A stretch of 56,374 nt of DNA from Paracoccaceae bacterium. GTDB lineage: Bacteria; Pseudomonadota; Alphaproteobacteria; Rhodobacterales; Rhodobacteraceae. The notes beneath the pieces are model-generated. The model saw only the letters and a list, made by a program, of their open reading frames with translations, had not been told where the DNA came from and did not search any database. This document shows, piece by piece, positions 5,218-26,852 of the stretch; position 1 is the stretch's first letter, and each line of letters begins with the position of its first letter. Location of the stretch: the NCBI GenBank assembly GCA_013214665.1, contig JABSSA010000006.1:1-56374 (forward strand), written 5' to 3'. Both the position numbers and the translations under genes were made by a program.

Positions 5218-7764
5218 TTAGGCCGCCGCCATCGCATGCGCCACAGCCTGCAAGATCACCCCGTTGGTGTTCAGATCGCTGTAGCCCTTTGTGACACGGC
5301 CTGTTTTGCTGAATATGCTCGAGGCAAAGCCGCCCTCGAACCGGGACTTTTCCCTCACGTAATCGAGAAGCTTGTGCGAATAGTCGTGCGGGCGATACGC
5401 CGCCCAAAGGAACGCGGCCTTGCTCGAAATCACCAGATTATCGCGCCAGAAATCCGGGTCGGCATATTGCGGCTCATACCCGACGGTATCCAACGCCCAT
5501 GTCCGCTCTGTCGCGTCCAATTGCAGGCCCTGATAGGTAAACCAGGGTGAGACGTCGATTGGCCCTTCGGAGACGGCAATCAAACGGCCCGTTTCGGCAT
5601 GTTCTTCGACCTGCGCGGCAAAGAGCACTTCGGCCAGATAGGCGCTTTCGCGGGACATGCCCAGTTCCATCGCCTCAAGCAGCAGCGGTTCCGCCCCAAT
5701 CGGCCCGATCCATGCGCTGGCCTCCAAAAGCGCCATCTGATCGTCATAGTCCGAACGGCCTTGAAACACCTCATAGGGGCTTTTGACGTCCACACCCCAA
5801 GCGCGAAAGGCGCGGGCCGAATAATGCGCGGAATGCGAACGATAGACCGAAGTCATTTCGCCATCAGTGACGGAATGCACCTCTCCGTCGACCACGATCT
5901 GGTCCAGATCCCAGGAATTGACCAAAGCGTTCAGGCGGTCTTCCATCCCGGCATAGCGGCGCAGGTTTTCAAGAGAGGCCAAAAGGCGGCCCGCGTCGCT
6001 GCCATCAAAGTCTTTGGTGCCCCATTTGTTGCGGTCCACCCGCAGCCAGCCTTGCGGCAAAAGCCGACCCTGCGATTTGCGGCCCCGGATCTGCGGCAGG
6101 ATTTTTGCAATACGCTGTTTGAACTCACGCTCAGAGATCAGCCCCAATTGCGCGGCGGCGACCAGCCCGTTGATATGGCTGCCCACGTCCCACATGGTCA
6201 CGGCGGCATGGCCCTCCCCGCCGGCCAACGCGCTGTTGACCGTAGCGGGGCACAGGCCCGTGGTGCGGTTGGTGTTCCGCTCAATATAGCTCCAGGCGAT
6301 GCGCGCATCTTCCATCAGCGCGGCGCGGTGGCTGTCGCTGCGGCGTGGGCGCCGGGTGGTGGTGTCGGGCATCGCAGCCTGTGTGCGCCGCTGACGCTCA
6401 ATCTCAGCGCCTTGCGGCATCATCATCTGGCCCAGCACATGCAGCGGCACAAAACGGGTGATGCCGTCAGAGGCCAGCAGCTTGAGCTGGTTGATCAACG
6501 CGTTTCGCGCAAAAGGCTGCACCATCGCTTCGGCGCGGATCGAAATCACCAGATCGTTGGTGCGCCCCACATGGTCCGACAACGTGGCGGCGGTATCGCT
6601 TGTTGCCACTTCAAAAGACGGCAGCCACAGCACCGCACATTCATCAAACCCCGGCACGGCGGTCGCAGCATCGCCGAAGGCAAGGCTATGCCCCGCAGGC
6701 AAAGCGCGATCCGGCGCAAAAGGTGCGCGCACGATCCCTCCAAGGCAGGCGCGGGTGACGGGCAACAACGGATCGCTTTCTGCGCCTGTAGCCTGCGGCA
6801 GCCAGTAATCCGCTTTTCGCTCAGGCGCGAAAACGCCGGCCTGATCGCCAACGCTGGCAAAAATACCCTGCTCGGTCAGATCGGTGAGAATCTGGTCAAA
6901 CCCTTGCATCAAGGCCGCGTCGCCCCGCGCCGGGCGGGTCAGGTGCACCGCGATGGAGCGCTGAAAGCCATAGCTGTCGCGCAGTTGCAGATCCGCTGCG
7001 CGCTGGACCGAATTGCGGCCGGTGTTTTCAGAGGCCAGAAGATCGCCAGCAAAGGCCACCGCTCCGTCTGCAACGCGTGACGGGCTATGCGCCTCCAGAT
7101 CAGCGGCAGAGATGTAGAACAGGGATTGCGTCGCCTCCGGCTGAAACCGCAACCCACCGGCACGGTAACGGCCCAGCGCGACGCGGGTGCCGCCATACAG
7201 GCGTACAACACCGTTCGGCCACAACTCGGACGTGACGGGTTTGTCGTTGGTAGGGATGGCCAACAAGGTCTTTACCCCGGCAGAGCGCACGCCCGAAGGG
7301 GATTTCGGCTTGGCGATATCATCGCAGGCCGCGACCTGAAGCAGCGTTTGTGCGTCGCGGGGCGCGCGGTTGCCGGAGAGGCTGGCGCGCAGCGTGGCAT
7401 GGGCATCGCGGATCAGGCGACCCTGAAAATACTCAGAGCGCGCACTGATGTCCGGCACATATCCGGCCACGTCGATGCCACGCCCTTGCAGCGTGTACCC
7501 GGCAAGAAGTGCGGCCAGCCGATCTTGCCCGCGCATCGCACGGCCTTCGGCATCCTCGGGGCGCACAACGCAGGTGAACGGCAAACCGCGCTCGCTGAAC
7601 GCGTCAAAGAGCGCCAACAGATGGGCGATTGAGCTTTCTGGCGTGACGTCATGCACCACCACGCAAGAGACGTTGTTGCGCATACCAAATGTGGCTGCGG
7701 CGCGGGCCATGGGGGCCGCGGTAATGGCTGCGGCGGTGCCGAAAAGGAAACTGCGACGGTTCAT
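5218..7764 (-). CDS. Tat-exported DUF3131 protein with deacetylase-like N-terminal region
   Basis: The N-terminus carries a twin-arginine signal (NRRSFLFG) with cleavage after ARAAA, so the 848-residue protein is probably periplasmic. Residues about 30-130 (VVVHDVTPESSIAHLLALFD onwards) resemble the start of a polysaccharide deacetylase-fold domain. The C-terminal half, about 460-845, matches DUF3131, a predicted alpha/alpha-toroid domain related to glycoamylase-like glycosidases (ALMEDARIAWSYIERNT; TMWDVGSHINGLVAA; LDTVGYEPQYADP). The start overlaps the stop of the upstream glycosyltransferase fusion by four bases, so the two are coupled. I infer that it trims, binds or modifies the polysaccharide made by that protein. 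No enzymatic activity can be read with certainty. Confidence 0.82.
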   Translation of the reverse strand: MNRRSFLFGTAAAITAAPMARAAATFGMRNNVSCVVVHDVTPESSIAHLLALFDAFSERGLPFTCVVRPEDAEGRAMRGQDRLAALLAGYTLQGRGIDVAGYVPDISARSEYFQGRLIRDAHATLRASLSGNRAPRDAQTLLQVAACDDIAKPKSPSGVRSAGVKTLLAIPTNDKPVTSELWPNGVVRLYGGTRVALGRYRAGGLRFQPEATQSLFYISAADLEAHSPSRVADGAVAFAGDLLASENTGRNSVQRAADLQLRDSYGFQRSIAVHLTRPARGDAALMQGFDQILTDLTEQGIFASVGDQAGVFAPERKADYWLPQATGAESDPLLPVTRACLGGIVRAPFAPDRALPAGHSLAFGDAATAVPGFDECAVLWLPSFEVATSDTAATLSDHVGRTNDLVISIRAEAMVQPFARNALINQLKLLASDGITRFVPLHVLGQMMMPQGAEIERQRRTQAAMPDTTTRRPRRSDSHRAALMEDARIAWSYIERNTNRTTGLCPATVNSALAGGEGHAAVTMWDVGSHINGLVAAAQLGLISEREFKQRIAKILPQIRGRKSQGRLLPQGWLRVDRNKWGTKDFDGSDAGRLLASLENLRRYAGMEDRLNALVNSWDLDQIVVDGEVHSVTDGEMTSVYRSHSAHYSARAFRAWGVDVKSPYEVFQGRSDYDDQMALLEASAWIGPIGAEPLLLEAMELGMSRESAYLAEVLFAAQVEEHAETGRLIAVSEGPIDVSPWFTYQGLQLDATERTWALDTVGYEPQYADPDFWRDNLVISSKAAFLWAAYRPHDYSHKLLDYVREKSRFEGGFASSIFSKTGRVTKGYSDLNTNGVILQAVAHAMAAA

Positions 7765-21302: not shown

Positions 21303-21331
21303 TTGTGTGATGACCTTGCAGTACCTATACT
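21303..21331 (+). promoter_or_regulatory. Sigma70-like promoter of the XpaC/TelA operon
   Basis: TTGTGT (21303-21308) and TATACT (21326-21331) are separated by exactly 17 bases. The 31-residue gene starts 24 bases after the -10 and is preceded by AAAGGAG, so the leader would be short. Confidence 0.55.
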
Positions 21332-21354
21332 TGTGTCAGGCAAAGGAGACTTTG

Positions 21355-21450
21355 ATGGACGCCAATTCGTTTCAACGCATCGCCTATGCGGCGCTGATCG
21401 TGGTGATGTTCGGCATTACGACCGGCTGGCTCAGCGCGGTTGCCAGCTGA
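21355..21450 (+). CDS. 31-residue single-pass membrane peptide
   Basis: This tiny gene starts at an ATG 6 bases after a perfect AAAGGAG. Its product has a short polar N-terminus (MDANSFQRIA), a hydrophobic helix (AALIVVMFGITTGWL) and a short C-terminus. Its stop overlaps the next start as TGATG, so translation of the XpaC gene is coupled to it. It is the first gene after the promoter. No family is recognised. It is likely to be missed by automatic annotation, and may be a real membrane subunit of the operon's system or a translational leader. Confidence 0.7.
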   Translation: MDANSFQRIAYAALIVVMFGITTGWLSAVAS

Positions 21451-22355
21451 TGGCAAAGCGGTACGGCGGCAAATACAGCCCCTCTGACGATCTGGACGTG
21501 ACAGAGCCAACGCCTGCAAAGCGCCGCCGCGCACGCGGGCGGATCGACCTGGCTGGCGCGCGGGCCAACGTGATGTTCATTCCTGCCATTCCAATGGTGT
21601 TCATGTCGCTCAACGATGGCGCTGTGGGCCTGACCCTCGCGGTTGTCTCGGCTGGCATTTTGACGGCTGCTGCGGTTTTGCTGCGCGAAGGGCTGAAAGC
21701 CGAAGCCGCGTTCAACGACCGCAAAATCGCCAAGCGTCCGGCCTTTCCGCGCAAGATGTTTTCCAGCGCGCTCACCGGCTTGGGCATTGCCATCGCCGCC
21801 TACAAGAACGAACCGGGCCTGATTGCCCCGCTGCTTTTTGGCGCGGTGACCGCAGGCCTGCATGTGGCCGCCTTTGGCATTGATCCGCTGCGGTCCAAAG
21901 GGGCCGAAGGCATTGATGCCTTCCAACAGGACCGCGTGGCGCGGGTTGTGGAAGAGGCCGAGAAATATCTGCGCGAAATGACAGACGCAATTTTGCGCGC
22001 CGAAGACCGCGATATAGAACGCCGGCTGGAACGGTTTCAGGACACGGCCCGCGAAATGATCCACACCGTCGAAGATGACCCGCGCGATCTGACGGCGGCA
22101 CGCAAGTATCTGGGCGTCTATTTGATGGGCGCGCGCGATGCGACGGTGAAGTTTGCCGATATCTTTGCCCGCTCCCGCGATCCACAGGCCTGGCGCAGCT
22201 ATGCCGCGCTGCTGACGGATCTCGAAGAGAATTTTGCCGCCAAAACCAAATCGCTGATGATCGAAGACAAAAGCGATCTGAACATTGAAATCGACGTGCT
22301 GCGCGAACGGTTGCAGCGCGAGGGGGTGCGCCTCCCTGTTTCTGACGACATCTGA
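21450..22355 (+). CDS. XpaC family protein (5-bromo-4-chloroindolyl phosphate hydrolysis family)
   Basis: The 301-residue protein has a basic N-terminus, two hydrophobic pairs (about 38-72 and 104-135), then a long, charged, helical C-terminal region (ARVVEEAEKYLREMTDAILRAED and onwards). This is the plan of the XpaC family (PF10112), named from a Bacillus protein that affects X-phosphate hydrolysis, although no enzyme activity is established. XpaC is almost always found beside TelA, as here. It starts in a TGATG overlap with the 31-residue gene. Confidence 0.88.
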   Translation: MAKRYGGKYSPSDDLDVTEPTPAKRRRARGRIDLAGARANVMFIPAIPMVFMSLNDGAVGLTLAVVSAGILTAAAVLLREGLKAEAAFNDRKIAKRPAFPRKMFSSALTGLGIAIAAYKNEPGLIAPLLFGAVTAGLHVAAFGIDPLRSKGAEGIDAFQQDRVARVVEEAEKYLREMTDAILRAEDRDIERRLERFQDTAREMIHTVEDDPRDLTAARKYLGVYLMGARDATVKFADIFARSRDPQAWRSYAALLTDLEENFAAKTKSLMIEDKSDLNIEIDVLRERLQREGVRLPVSDDI

Positions 22356-22374
22356 TTAGTACAAAGGAAGTTCC

Positions 22375-23574
22375 ATGTCCGACACCGTACGCAAGAAGGC
22401 CGAACAATCCGTCGCTTTGGTGGAAGAGGTCACGGCCATCACCCTGCCCGAACCCATGCCCGCCGATGAGGTGATCACGCTGGAAGCCGCCGATCCGCAG
22501 GTGAGCAGCGAAATTCAAAGCCGCATGGATGAGATTGATATGATGGACACCAATTCCATCGTATCCTTCGGCTCTGCTGCGCAGGCCGAATTGCAGGAAA
22601 TCAGCCAATCCATGTTGGCCGATGTGCGCAACAAGGATGTGGGCCCCGCGGGCGACAGCCTGCGCGACATCGTGACGACAATCCGTGGCTTTTCCGTATC
22701 CGAGCTGGACGTGCGCCGGGATCAATCCTGGTGGGAACGTCTGTTAGGCCGCGCAGCCCCCTTTGCCAAGTTCAGCGCCAAGTTTGAAAAGGTGCAGGGC
22801 CAGATTGACCGGATCACCGATGATCTACTGTCGCATGAGCACACGCTGTTGAAAGACATCAAATCGCTCGACCTGCTGTATGATAAAACGCTGCAATTCT
22901 ATGACGAGCTGGCGCTGTACATCTCCGCCGGTGAGGCCAAGCTGGCCTCGCTTGACGCCAATGACATTCCAGCCGCCGAAGCGGCGGTGGAACAGGCCTC
23001 CGAAGAGGATCAGGTGATGAAAGCCCAAGAGCTGCGCGATCTGCGCGCCGCGCGGGATGATCTGGAACGCCGGATGCATGATCTCAAGCTGACGCGTCAG
23101 GTGACGATGCAATCGCTGCCGTCGATCCGGCTGGTTCAGGAAAATGACAAGTCGCTGGTGACCAAGATCAACTCGACCCTCGTGAACACCGTGCCTTTGT
23201 GGGAAACGCAACTGGCGCAGGCCGTCACGATCCAACGCTCTGCCGAAGCGGCAGCGGCGGTGCGTGATGCCAATGATCTGACCAATGAGCTGTTGACGTC
23301 GAACGCCAAGAACCTACGCGAGAGCAACAAGATGATCCGCCAGGAGATGGAGCGCGGCGTCTTTGATATCGAAGCGGTCAAGCAGGCCAATGCCGACCTG
23401 ATCGGCACCATTCAGGAAAGCCTGCAAATCGCGGATGAAGGCAAAGCCAAACGCGCTGCCGCCGAGGAAGATCTGAAAAAGATGGAAGCCGATTTGCGCG
23501 ACACGCTCGCCGCTGCCAAAGCCCGCCGCGACGGTCTGGGCGACACAGCGGCCGCATCCGCGCCTGCCAACTAA
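22375..23574 (+). CDS. telA: Toxic anion resistance protein TelA family
   Basis: TelA-family proteins are linked with tellurite and other membrane-stress resistance, with unknown mechanism. The 399-residue product is acidic, without membrane segments, and mostly coiled helix. The conserved parts visible are GSAAQAELQEISQSMLADVRN, WWERLLGRAAPFAKFSAKFEKVQGQID and MQSLPSIRLVQENDKSLVTKINSTL-type sequence. The start has AAAGGAAG upstream. It sits second to XpaC, in the order seen in other organisms. The gene symbol reflects the family, not demonstrated tellurite resistance. Confidence 0.92.
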   Translation: MSDTVRKKAEQSVALVEEVTAITLPEPMPADEVITLEAADPQVSSEIQSRMDEIDMMDTNSIVSFGSAAQAELQEISQSMLADVRNKDVGPAGDSLRDIVTTIRGFSVSELDVRRDQSWWERLLGRAAPFAKFSAKFEKVQGQIDRITDDLLSHEHTLLKDIKSLDLLYDKTLQFYDELALYISAGEAKLASLDANDIPAAEAAVEQASEEDQVMKAQELRDLRAARDDLERRMHDLKLTRQVTMQSLPSIRLVQENDKSLVTKINSTLVNTVPLWETQLAQAVTIQRSAEAAAAVRDANDLTNELLTSNAKNLRESNKMIRQEMERGVFDIEAVKQANADLIGTIQESLQIADEGKAKRAAAEEDLKKMEADLRDTLAAAKARRDGLGDTAAASAPAN

Positions 23575-23595
23575 GCGCGACAGCGGGGGTGAGAC

Positions 23596-24528
23596 GTGCG
23601 GCACTGGTTCACATATGCGGTTGCGGGCGCTGGGCTTTTGGCCCTGTCGGCCTGTGATCTGCTGAACCCGGTTGATCCGGTCCGCACACCGCAACTGCGC
23701 CCCGCGGCACCCGCGCCGCAGGCCACATCCGAACGCAGCGCCGCCTTGCGTCAATATCTGCGCGAGGTGCAATCCATCCAGCTGTCACAAGGCCTGTTGC
23801 GTCAGGATGGCGGCGGGCCGGACACGCCGTTTTCCGCCAACACGCTGGCGCGCAATTTCGACCGGATCGTCTTTTTTAGCGAATATGAGACCGCCGGCAC
23901 CGCAGCCGGTGTGTCGGGCAAGCTGCGCCGGTGGGACATACCGGTACGGATGCGCGTTGAGTTTGGCCCATCGGTGCCACCAAGTCAGGCGCAACAGGAT
24001 CGCCGGGACGTGGCCGCGTATGCGCGCCGTCTGGCGCGGGTAACAGGACATCCGATCACGACCACGCGGGTGAACCCGAACTTTCTGGTGTTCTTTGTCT
24101 CCGAAGATGATCGCGCCGCCACCATTGACGCCATCGCAACCCGCCTGCCCGGCGTGACGACAACCAACCTCAGCCCGATCCGCAATCTGAGCGATGATGT
24201 GTACTGCGCCGTCGCCGCCTATGCGGCGGGGCCTGATCCATCGACCTACACCGCCGCCATCGCGGTGATCCGGGCCGAAAACCCCGATCTGCTGCGCCTG
24301 TCATGCATCCACGAAGAGCTGGCCCAAGGCCTCGGGCTCGCCAATGACAGCCCCGAAGCGCGCCCGTCGATCTTTAACGATGACGACGAATTTGCGCTGT
24401 TGACCAACCACGACGAGCTGTTGTTGCAAATGCTCTATGACGACCGCCTGCGCCCCGGTCAGACATTGGCTGAGGCGCAACCCGTCAGCCGTATCATCGC
24501 CCGCGAACTCACGCAGGGCCCGCTTTAG
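23596..24528 (+). CDS. DUF2927 lipoprotein
   Basis: This starts with GTG and a lipoprotein signal whose lipobox is LSAC (Cys about 20). The 310-residue product belongs to DUF2927. Conserved elements are the FDRIVFFSEYE-like strand, RWDIPVRMRVEFG, and the late LSCIHEELAQGLGLANDSPEARPSIFNDDDEFALLT. HEELAQGLGL resembles the HExxH-type helix of zinc peptidases, but only HEE followed by Leu is present, so activity is not claimed. It is part of the XpaC/TelA operon and would face the periplasm. Confidence 0.87.
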   Translation: MRHWFTYAVAGAGLLALSACDLLNPVDPVRTPQLRPAAPAPQATSERSAALRQYLREVQSIQLSQGLLRQDGGGPDTPFSANTLARNFDRIVFFSEYETAGTAAGVSGKLRRWDIPVRMRVEFGPSVPPSQAQQDRRDVAAYARRLARVTGHPITTTRVNPNFLVFFVSEDDRAATIDAIATRLPGVTTTNLSPIRNLSDDVYCAVAAYAAGPDPSTYTAAIAVIRAENPDLLRLSCIHEELAQGLGLANDSPEARPSIFNDDDEFALLTNHDELLLQMLYDDRLRPGQTLAEAQPVSRIIARELTQGPL

Positions 24529-24551
24529 ATCACGTAAGGAGACTGCCACAG

Positions 24552-25682
24552 ATGGGCATTTTCGATTTCCTCTCAGGTGAATTCATCGACGTCATCCATT
24601 GGGTGGACGACAGCCGCGACACGATGGTCTGGCGTTTTGAGCGCGAAGATCACGCGATTAAATATGGCGCCAAGCTCACCGTGCGCGAAGGGCAAGCGGC
24701 GGTCTTTGTGCATGAAGGGCAATTGGCGGATGTGTTCACGCCCGGTCTTTATATGCTTGAGACCAACAACATGCCGATCCTGACGACGCTCAATCACTGG
24801 GATCACGGCTTTCGCTCGCCCTTCAAATCCGAGATCTACTTCGTCAACACGACGCGGTTTGCCAATCTGAAATGGGGCACCAAGAACCCGATCATCTGCC
24901 GTGACCCGGAGTTTGGCCCGGTGCGCCTGCGCGCGTTCGGCACCTATACGGTGCGCGTGGCAGATCCCGCGAATTTCCTGGTGGAGATCGTGGGCACCGA
25001 TGGCGAATTCACAATGGATGAGATCAGCTATCAGATTCGCAACATCATCGTGCAGGAATTTTCACGCACCGTGGCCCGCTCGGGCATTCCAGTGCTCGAC
25101 ATGGCCGCCAACACCCGCGAACTGGGCCAGCTTGTGGCGCGCGAAATTGAAGCCGTGATCGCGGAGTATGGCCTGTCTTTGCCGGAGCTTTATGTCGAAA
25201 ACGTCTCTCTCCCGCCTGCAGTGGAAGAGGTGATGGACAAACGCTCGTCCATGGGCGTGATCGGCAATCTGAACGAATATATGCAATTCCAGGCCGCCGA
25301 AGCTCTGGGCCGCGATGGCGGCGGCGCGGCGGCGATTCAGGCGGGCATGGGCGCCGGTCTGGGTATGCAAATCGGCCAGGCGGTGAGCGCGGGCAGCCCG
25401 TGGGGCGCACGCCCTGCGCAGGCTGAGGCGCCACCGGCGCGCGCAGCCGCCGCGCCGCCACCTCCGCCGCCAGTGGAGCATGTCTGGCACATCGCCAAAG
25501 ATGGGGCGACGACGGGACCGTTTTCCAAAGCCAAGCTGGGCCGGATGGCGACCGAGGGCGAGCTAACGCGGGAAAGCTATGTCTGGACCGCAGGGCAAGA
25601 CGGCTGGAAAAAGGCCGAAGACGTGGCGGAACTGGCGCAGCTTTTCACCGTGTTGCCCCCACCCCCGCCACCGGGCGTGTAA
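24552..25682 (+). CDS. SPFH-domain protein with C-terminal GYF_2 domain
   Basis: Residues about 25-235 form an SPFH/band-7-like domain of the type sometimes called virion core protein (YdjI-like). Clear segments are ESRDTMVWRFE-like start (DSRDTMVWRFERED), RAFGTYTVRVADPANFLVEIVG and YGLSLPELYVENVSLPPAVEEVMDKR. After an Ala/Pro-rich linker there is a GYF_2 module (HVWHIAKDGATTGPFSKAKL to GWKKAEDVAELAQLF), a domain that binds protein partners. SPFH proteins build membrane-associated scaffolds. The gene has AAGGAG 13 bases before the ATG. Confidence 0.9.
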   Translation: MGIFDFLSGEFIDVIHWVDDSRDTMVWRFEREDHAIKYGAKLTVREGQAAVFVHEGQLADVFTPGLYMLETNNMPILTTLNHWDHGFRSPFKSEIYFVNTTRFANLKWGTKNPIICRDPEFGPVRLRAFGTYTVRVADPANFLVEIVGTDGEFTMDEISYQIRNIIVQEFSRTVARSGIPVLDMAANTRELGQLVAREIEAVIAEYGLSLPELYVENVSLPPAVEEVMDKRSSMGVIGNLNEYMQFQAAEALGRDGGGAAAIQAGMGAGLGMQIGQAVSAGSPWGARPAQAEAPPARAAAAPPPPPPVEHVWHIAKDGATTGPFSKAKLGRMATEGELTRESYVWTAGQDGWKKAEDVAELAQLFTVLPPPPPPGV

Positions 25683-25742
25683 CGCCGCGCGCGCGGCGTT
25701 GCGCCTGCGAAAATTCCCACGTGTTGCGCCTGAGGAAGAGCC

Positions 25743-26852
25743 ATGCCTGACGTCACCGAAGCCGCCCCAGCGGCCCATCGCTTTCCCTGCGATAATTGCG
25801 GGGCGGATTTCCGGTTCAACCCCGCGACCGGCGGCCTGATCTGCGATTTCTGCGGCAACACATCAGAGGTGGAAGGCACAGGCCCGCAGGTACGCGCCAT
25901 CGAAGAGTTGGATTTTCAGGCCGCGTTGAACGCGGATCTGCCCGAAGCGGAGATGGAGGAAACTCGCGTCTCGGCCTGCCCCAATTGCGGGGCGCAGGTG
26001 GAATTTGACGCGGATGTCCACGCCAAGGAATGCCCGTTCTGCGCCACGCCGGTTGTGACCGACACGGGCGTGCATCGGCATATCAAACCCGCTGGCCTGC
26101 TGGCCTTTCAGCTGGACGAAAATCAGGCGCGCGATGCGATGAATACTTGGCTGGGGCGGCTCTGGTTTGCGCCGAACGGGCTGCAAGACTACGCCCGCAG
26201 TGGCCGCAAAATGCAGGGCATATACGTGCCCTATTGGACCTATGACGCGGACACCAAAACCGCCTATTCCGGCGAACGCGGCACAGTTTACTACGAAACC
26301 AAAACCGTGACGCGGAATGGAAAGCAGGAACAGGTACGTGTTTCAAAAGTGCGCTGGCGACGGGTCAGTGGCAAGGTGGCGCGGTTCTTTGATGACATTG
26401 TCATTCTGGCCTCAAAATCGCTGCCGAAAAAGTACACCGACGCGCTGCAGCCGTGGGATCTGTCGGCGCTGGAGCCCTATCACCCTGAATTCCTCGCGGG
26501 CTTTCGCGCCGAAGGCTATCAGGTTGAACTGGCCGATGGCTTTGATGAGGCGCGCGCGCATATGGATCAGGTGATCCAGCGGGATATCAAGTTTGACATT
26601 GGCGGGGATCGGCAGCGCATCCATCAGGCCAAGACCGATGTGCGCGATGTCACCTTCAAACATGTGCTTCTGCCAGTCTGGCTGGCCGCCTACAAATACC
26701 GGGGCGAGACCTATCGCTTTGTCGTGAATGGCCAAACGGGCCGGGTACAGGGTGAGCGGCCCTGGTCGGGATGGAAAATCGCTGTGGCGGTTATTCTGGG
26801 CCTGATCGTCGCCGCGGCCGTCGGCTATGGGATTGCACTGTCGGAAGGCTAG
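25743..26852 (+). CDS. Double zinc-ribbon, C-terminal membrane-anchored protein
   Basis: Two zinc ribbons open the protein: CDNC (16-19) with CDFC (34-37), and CPNC (79-82) with CPFC (97-100). Such proteins are often misnamed as primosomal N'/TFIIB-type proteins, but here no helicase is present. The middle region (about 110-320) contains YVPYWTYDADTKTAYSGERG and ILPVWLAAYKYRGETYRFVVNG-like strands, conserved in the family. A single membrane helix lies at about 345-365. It is the last gene of the operon that starts at 21355; partners are inferred from this. Confidence 0.88.
   Translation: MPDVTEAAPAAHRFPCDNCGADFRFNPATGGLICDFCGNTSEVEGTGPQVRAIEELDFQAALNADLPEAEMEETRVSACPNCGAQVEFDADVHAKECPFCATPVVTDTGVHRHIKPAGLLAFQLDENQARDAMNTWLGRLWFAPNGLQDYARSGRKMQGIYVPYWTYDADTKTAYSGERGTVYYETKTVTRNGKQEQVRVSKVRWRRVSGKVARFFDDIVILASKSLPKKYTDALQPWDLSALEPYHPEFLAGFRAEGYQVELADGFDEARAHMDQVIQRDIKFDIGGDRQRIHQAKTDVRDVTFKHVLLPVWLAAYKYRGETYRFVVNGQTGRVQGERPWSGWKIAVAVILGLIVAAAVGYGIALSEG

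Follow-up and report, generated by a model that had tools for sequence, protein, structure and literature searches.

Within the 56,374-nucleotide stretch of Paracoccaceae bacterium DNA analysed here (assembly GCA_013214665.1, contig JABSSA010000006.1, positions 1 to 56,374, referred to below as the window), six co-directional open reading frames (ORFs) lie tightly packed on the + strand between positions 21355 and 26852. They encode, in order, a microprotein, an XpaC-like membrane protein, TelA, a DUF2927 lipoprotein, an SPFH protein with a GYF_2 domain, and a double zinc-ribbon (ZnR) protein with a transmembrane (TM) anchor (Table 1). The TGA stop codon of the microprotein gene overlaps the ATG of the XpaC gene by one base (TGATG), and the gaps that follow, from XpaC to the ZnR gene, are 19, 21, 23 and 60 bp in order. 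A first-pass annotation of this DNA had placed six closely spaced genes here, an arrangement confirmed by the ORFs and their Pfam matches; position 21303 is merely the start of an over-long ORF.

Table 1. Features of the XpaC-TelA-DUF2927-SPFH-ZnR locus in the window
Feature	Coordinates	Strand	Basis
Possible sigma70-like promoter, TTGTGT-17-TATACT, weak	21303..21331	+	Spotted by eye, 5' of the microprotein
Microprotein, 31 aa, single TM segment, MDANSFQRIAYAALIVVMFGITTGWLSAVAS	21355..21450	+	ORF; homologues at the same place in relatives
XpaC-like membrane protein	21450..22355	+	PF10112, E 3.6e-23
TelA	22375..23574	+	PF05816, E 7.8e-107
DUF2927 lipoprotein	23596..24528	+	PF11150, E 1.3e-60
SPFH Band_7_1 + GYF_2 protein	24552..25682	+	PF13421, E 2.1e-99; PF14237, E 4.1e-20
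Double zinc-ribbon (ZnR) protein, C-terminal TM anchor	25743..26852	+	Zn-ribbon matches near cut-off; alignment

A survey of 120 genera of the Rhodobacteraceae, with one genome for each, showed that the gene set is conserved far beyond chance. TelA was found in 105 of the 120 genera and DUF2927 in 114, while PF13421 was matched in 106, one of these only weakly. TelA and a full-length SPFH protein occurred together in 104 genera, TelA alone in one, SPFH alone in one and neither in 14 (Fisher p 3e-16, a value that ignores phylogeny), and in both exceptions the gene lies at a contig end, TelA in an assembly that is 84% complete (G239) and SPFH in one that is 78% complete (G260). The two genes are no more than 6 kb apart on one strand in 96 of the 104 genomes and are separated, yet both retained, in the other 8, where some of the separations may be contig breaks; in genome G159, for instance, XpaC-TelA lies about 37 kb from DUF2927-SPFH-ZnR on the same contig. 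In no fewer than 92 of 105 genomes the gene right after TelA is DUF2927, and of the 80 closest loci about 77 repeat the gene order, three of them without a recognised XpaC. Across the genomes compared, the genes are shown to behave as an operon-like unit, being gained, lost and retained jointly. A few relatives depart from this layout. A membrane-protein gene lies between DUF2927 and SPFH at positions 5632-6270 of locus L101, where it encodes DUF6338, and at 6726-7373 of L102, and in one genus (G234) the place of DUF2927 is filled by a protein of 330 aa that seems to be helical and matches nothing in Pfam (L114, 6129-7121).

The first-pass annotation was to fall if the gene order held only among close relatives, and this check did not refute it. 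The order XpaC-TelA-SPFH-ZnR recurs in four other alphaproteobacterial families (L121, L122, L123 and L125), in loci that lack DUF2927 and all of the genes flanking the window's operon and whose neighbours are unrelated. At the level of the class, sampled through 142 genomes that each represent one alphaproteobacterial family, strong TelA matches occurred in 10 genomes and strong full-length SPFH matches in 7, and all 7 of the SPFH genomes carried TelA (7 with both, 3 with TelA only, none with SPFH only, 132 with neither; p 6e-10). In one further family (L129), a divergent DUF2927 gene is found no more than 5 kb from a TelA gene. XpaC-TelA is also found without SPFH-ZnR (L126), and SPFH-ZnR pairs with no TelA nearby occur in other Pseudomonadota (L245-L253), in Vibrio and Comamonas, and in the actinomycete Tsukamurella, with homology of the ZnR proteins in the non-alphaproteobacterial pairs confirmed by profile search. 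These loci show SPFH-ZnR as a mobile two-gene module that elsewhere is solitary or has other partners. Because each dyad is found separately, the operon is a fusion that brings together the older modules XpaC-TelA and SPFH-ZnR, to which DUF2927 and the microprotein appear to be Rhodobacteraceae additions.

Homologues of the microprotein, 24-31 aa in length, are encoded directly 5' of XpaC in 89 of the 92 family loci with XpaC and TelA. Each has one hydrophobic segment, typically of the form MSxTGLQKLAFxLLxxLILYVSxxGGA or ...GVxTGWLGGL, and no Pfam or NCBIfam match was obtained. Mismatch rates at the first, second and third codon positions are 0.41, 0.28 and 0.57, so that the DNA varies most at third positions, as expected of a translated gene. 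The adjacent XpaC protein has N-terminal hydrophobic segments and a cytosolic helical C-terminal domain, a topology read from the sequence.

The first-pass annotation had set the genes behind one promoter, which was not demonstrated: a consensus scan found no sigma70 promoter on the + strand at the operon, and scans for sigma70 promoters and terminators gave matches no more numerous than in shuffled sequence. The TTGTGT-17-TATACT element in Table 1 is only suggestive as a promoter. A different upstream element, CTTCCCCCTAGCAAG...CATCGCCTAnnTT, is common to many but not all of the compared relatives and is absent from the window; in several loci, such as L218, L196 and L192, CTTCCCCCTAGCAAG and CATCGCCTAnnTT, with a spacer between them, sit 5' of the microprotein and might serve as an alternative promoter or as a regulator site. 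In some genera (L099, L182, L203, L223 and L235), a different conserved small ORF with a single TM segment (MSKSTFYFAVxVLFxVEIxQSGYxRKLAAER...) is found at a greater distance upstream of the operon.

The SPFH protein has an N-terminus that reads as non-hydrophobic, and has no N-terminal TM segment. Its C-terminal GYF_2 domain sits between two proline tracts, of which the tail PPPxP is invariant in 14 aligned sequences, often as PPPPPG[A/V/T/I], and the run before GYF_2 is present in most of the 14; the comparison of tails covered 89 operons. GYF domains bind proline-rich ligands. Since long proline runs occur only in SPFH among the predicted cytoplasmic products of the operon, self-association within an SPFH assembly is the simplest reading. 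In a sequence search of the PDB the sole match to the SPFH protein was its GYF region, to the solved Myxococcus AglX domain (7z3c); the search gave nothing for DUF2927, and neither TelA nor ZnR had a convincing match. TelA itself is strongly conserved, with a mean column identity of 81% in the family alignment. The ZnR protein carries two invariant cysteine quartets (C16/C19/C34/C37 and C79/C82/C97/C100), followed by a central domain with an LLPVW...NGQTG motif and by the C-terminal TM segment. The window's genome also encodes a divergent ZnR paralogue (L243, G000:C7, 7338-8689; E 4e-61), which overlaps an upstream 102-aa hydrophobic ORF and has no SPFH gene near it.

The most unusual part of the operon, overlooked in the first-pass annotation, is the predicted matrixin-like fold of DUF2927, a family of which no mention was found in the literature searched. 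The lipoprotein has a lipobox, LSAC, with Cys20 present in 95 of 105 homologues, and its Cys204 and Cys237 are conserved in 104 and 105 of these, consistent with a periplasmic protein that contains a disulfide. An AlphaFold2 model built from 76 sequences (predicted local distance difference test, pLDDT, 89.9; predicted TM-score 0.84) found matrix metalloproteinases (MMPs) as its best matches in a Foldseek search of the PDB, with a best E of 1.8e-3. A second structure aligner (VIA) placed MMP-12 at Z 11.8 (root-mean-square deviation 2.8 over 149 aligned residues), and all 50 entries that it listed are matrixins, the top ones at Z 10.7-11.8. Where matrixins have HExxHxxGxxH, the 105 DUF2927 homologues have a near-invariant EExxQxxGLxND (E240-D251), with E240, E241, Q244, G247 and D251 in 105 of 105 and N250 in 104. 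The helix of the model stops at residue 246, right before G247, like the glycine of the metzincin motif. This supports an alignment of E240, Q244 and N250 with the three zinc histidines and of E241 with the catalytic Glu, a register that comes from the motif and the helix end and not from a superposition of coordinates. The zinc-histidine positions of DUF2927 therefore appear, in the model, to hold E, Q and N.

Similarity to the matrixins (MMPs, karilysin) extends to the predicted fold, the position of the catalytic Glu and the Gly that ends the active-site helix, and stops there. The zinc motif HExxHxxGxxH/D is absent from the 105 homologues, S258-I259-F260 stands where the Met-turn methionine would be, and hhalign gave a probability of 0.3% against alphaproteobacterial M10-type peptidases, the level of unrelated controls, so that no sequence-profile link to M10 peptidases was detected. 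Because zinc motif, Met-turn and profile homology are all lacking, we do not class DUF2927 as a metzincin; its site is predicted to be a different and strongly conserved one. A second DUF2927 lipoprotein is encoded in the window's genome (454 aa, motif HEELAQALGPLND; L137, G000:C437, 2322-6550), flanked by genes for a MoxR-type AAA+ ATPase, a GNAT protein and a VWA_CoxE protein, which suggests that the fold is used a second time, with a MoxR-VWA system.

Both halves of the operon have relatives in characterised systems. In Bacillus subtilis, where PF13421 is also matched, the SPFH protein YdjI binds and recruits PspA; under alkali stress, neither protein forms membrane foci unless the membrane proteins YdjG and YdjH are present (PMC8581546). 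YdjG combines a pair of zinc ribbons with a TM segment (PMC11237479). Like pspA-ydjGHI, the operon encodes a Band_7_1 SPFH protein that has no TM segment of its own, and its double zinc-ribbon membrane protein may correspond to YdjG. Unlike it, the operon lacks PspA and the TPM protein YdjH and contains TelA, XpaC, the microprotein and DUF2927, and the C-terminus of its SPFH protein is formed by GYF_2 and proline tracts, that of YdjI by a Zn finger. PspA/IM30 (PF04012) is absent from the Pfam matches of the operon and has no match in the window's genome, and no TPM-domain (YdjH-type) protein is among the operon's Pfam matches. XpaC-TelA genes take part in envelope-stress responses of Listeria, Lactococcus and Enterococcus (PMC12791056, PMC3139573, PMC10269926). 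The Firmicutes pairs, such as Listeria lmo1966-1967, Lactococcus llmg_1115-1116 and the B. subtilis homologues, share adjacent PF10112 and PF05816 genes and the envelope-stress link with the operon, but have neither SPFH-ZnR nor a lipoprotein in the cited operons (PMC12791056, PMC3139573). The multi-gene SPFH/DUF4178/DUF350/polyamine operon of Novosphingobium plasmid p1 contains a related SPFH protein (44% identity), but alongside DUF4178, DUF350, an aminopropyltransferase and speD, with no TelA, ZnR-TM protein or DUF2927. The first-pass annotation had called the system undescribed. That holds for the combination and for DUF2927, neither of which was found described in the literature searched, and fails for the halves, since XpaC-TelA is known from Listeria, Lactococcus and Bacillus and SPFH with a Zn ribbon from ydjGHI; what would be new is the joining of the two known modules and the DUF2927 fold.

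The same annotation's picture of one conserved, mostly membrane-associated unit with a lipoprotein across the membrane is supported. By analogy with B. subtilis, the operon may encode a membrane-surveillance and repair scaffold, PspA-YdjGHI-like but without PspA, a reading that we favour tentatively, at somewhat less than even confidence. In such a scaffold, the soluble SPFH protein would oligomerise into rings on the cytoplasmic face, anchored through the ZnR-TM protein and possibly through the microprotein as well, and its GYF_2 domains would bind proline tracts in adjacent SPFH subunits. The SPFH-ZnR platform would recruit TelA and its partner XpaC to membrane under stress, a position that in B. 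subtilis is occupied by PspA. DUF2927 would be the outer, periplasmic arm in Rhodobacteraceae, its matrixin-type cleft binding an envelope peptide, or cleaving it by non-canonical chemistry, and so reporting envelope damage. The full version, a PspA-independent trans-envelope repair complex in which SPFH/ZnR recruits TelA as effector, DUF2927 contributes a matrixin fold with a re-wired E/Q/N(D) site and the 27-31 aa membrane microprotein is a family-wide component, is doubtful as a whole.

Several observations weigh against a surveillance scaffold of this type. PspA exceeded the cut-off in 22 of the 120 family genera, in 19 of 105 with TelA and 3 of 15 without (p 1.0); because its presence does not anti-correlate with that of TelA, the idea that TelA replaces PspA is not borne out and was set aside. 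An ESCRT-III/PspA-like fold for TelA was likewise rejected: the AlphaFold2 model, of long alpha-helical hairpins, reaches a moderate pLDDT of 78, and its best matches are ClyA-type pore proteins (Z 12.6), within the noise expected of helical bundles. No PspA or ESCRT-III chain is among the structure matches listed for the model, which in itself proves nothing. ZnR, with its pair of CxxC...CxxC ribbons and its TM segment at the C-terminus, is likened to YdjG by domain layout and not by direct comparison, and a sensory role for DUF2927 is conjectural. Gene order within the family would by itself be weak evidence of conservation beyond chance. Flanking genes are often kept as well, an RluB homologue at 80 and Dtd at 77 of the 97 loci, and for this reason the joint losses and the retention of genes after separation outweigh it.

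SPFH proteins can act as scaffolds for proteases, as HflKC does for FtsH, and the operon might instead serve membrane-protein quality control, with an HflKC-like SPFH/ZnR compartment, TelA and XpaC as structural partners and, on the opposite face, DUF2927 as a subunit that is a peptidase or binds peptides. The predicted metalloprotease fold of DUF2927, with a near-invariant site that includes a Glu at the catalytic position, would fit, but the operon has no FtsH-type protease, the zinc ligands are replaced and the core occurs without DUF2927 in four families, which makes this reading unlikely. It is also improbable that XpaC-TelA and SPFH-ZnR are two unrelated housekeeping modules that merely share a transcript. 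Outside this group of genomes each dyad does occur without the other (XpaC-TelA at L126, SPFH-ZnR at several other loci), and within the family the neighbouring genes, too, are often kept. Against this stand the 104/1/1/14 distribution, with co-loss in 14 genera and both genes kept apart in 8 genomes, and the presence of TelA in 7 of 7 SPFH genomes at class level.

A tellurite or oxyanion resistance determinant, as the name TelA implies, is less probable still. TelA is 27% identical to the product of klaB, a plasmid gene whose annotation is tellurium resistance, its PHROG label is 'tellurite resistance', and telA is among the Rhodobacter sphaeroides tellurite-resistance determinants listed in a review (PMC6955997, citing O'Gara 1997). 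The same review, however, considers it unclear how most such systems work at the molecular level, and the remaining parts of the operon are ill-suited to oxyanion chemistry; TerB, TerC and TerD of the Ter cluster were absent from the Pfam scan of the six proteins. The Firmicutes phenotypes mainly concern envelope antimicrobials: a Listeria TelA mutant shows a 4-fold rise in sensitivity to nisin and just a 2-fold rise to tellurite (PMC12791056). The first-pass annotation had linked TelA and XpaC to both toxic-anion and membrane-stress resistance, of which the toxic-anion part rests mostly on the name of TelA; the phenotypes reported are chiefly ones of tolerance to antimicrobials that act on the cell envelope (PMC12791056, PMC10269926). 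An anti-phage system is very improbable, for although membrane-stress systems sometimes counter phage and TelA has a very weak PADLOC match to PbeC (E 0.0095), no other informative PADLOC match was obtained and none was better than E 0.005, the PADLOC and PHROG scans gave no sign of defence or phage origin beyond PbeC and the tellurite label, and the operon is near-universal, syntenic and single-copy in the family, as opposed to patchy defence islands.

In marine Rhodobacteraceae the six-gene package is widespread and, as far as genome comparison tells, inherited as one unit. TelA and XpaC are themselves widespread proteins that take their names from a tellurite phenotype and for which no function is agreed; their strict co-inheritance with SPFH/ZnR, whose apparent B. 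subtilis counterpart is understood, provides a testable hypothesis for the role of TelA. The predicted matrixin-like fold with a conserved non-canonical active site would be the first structural assignment for DUF2927, and, if the proposal is true, its E/Q/N(D) site would either be of a new kind, binding a metal or ligand without histidines, or belong to a pseudo-protease sensor.

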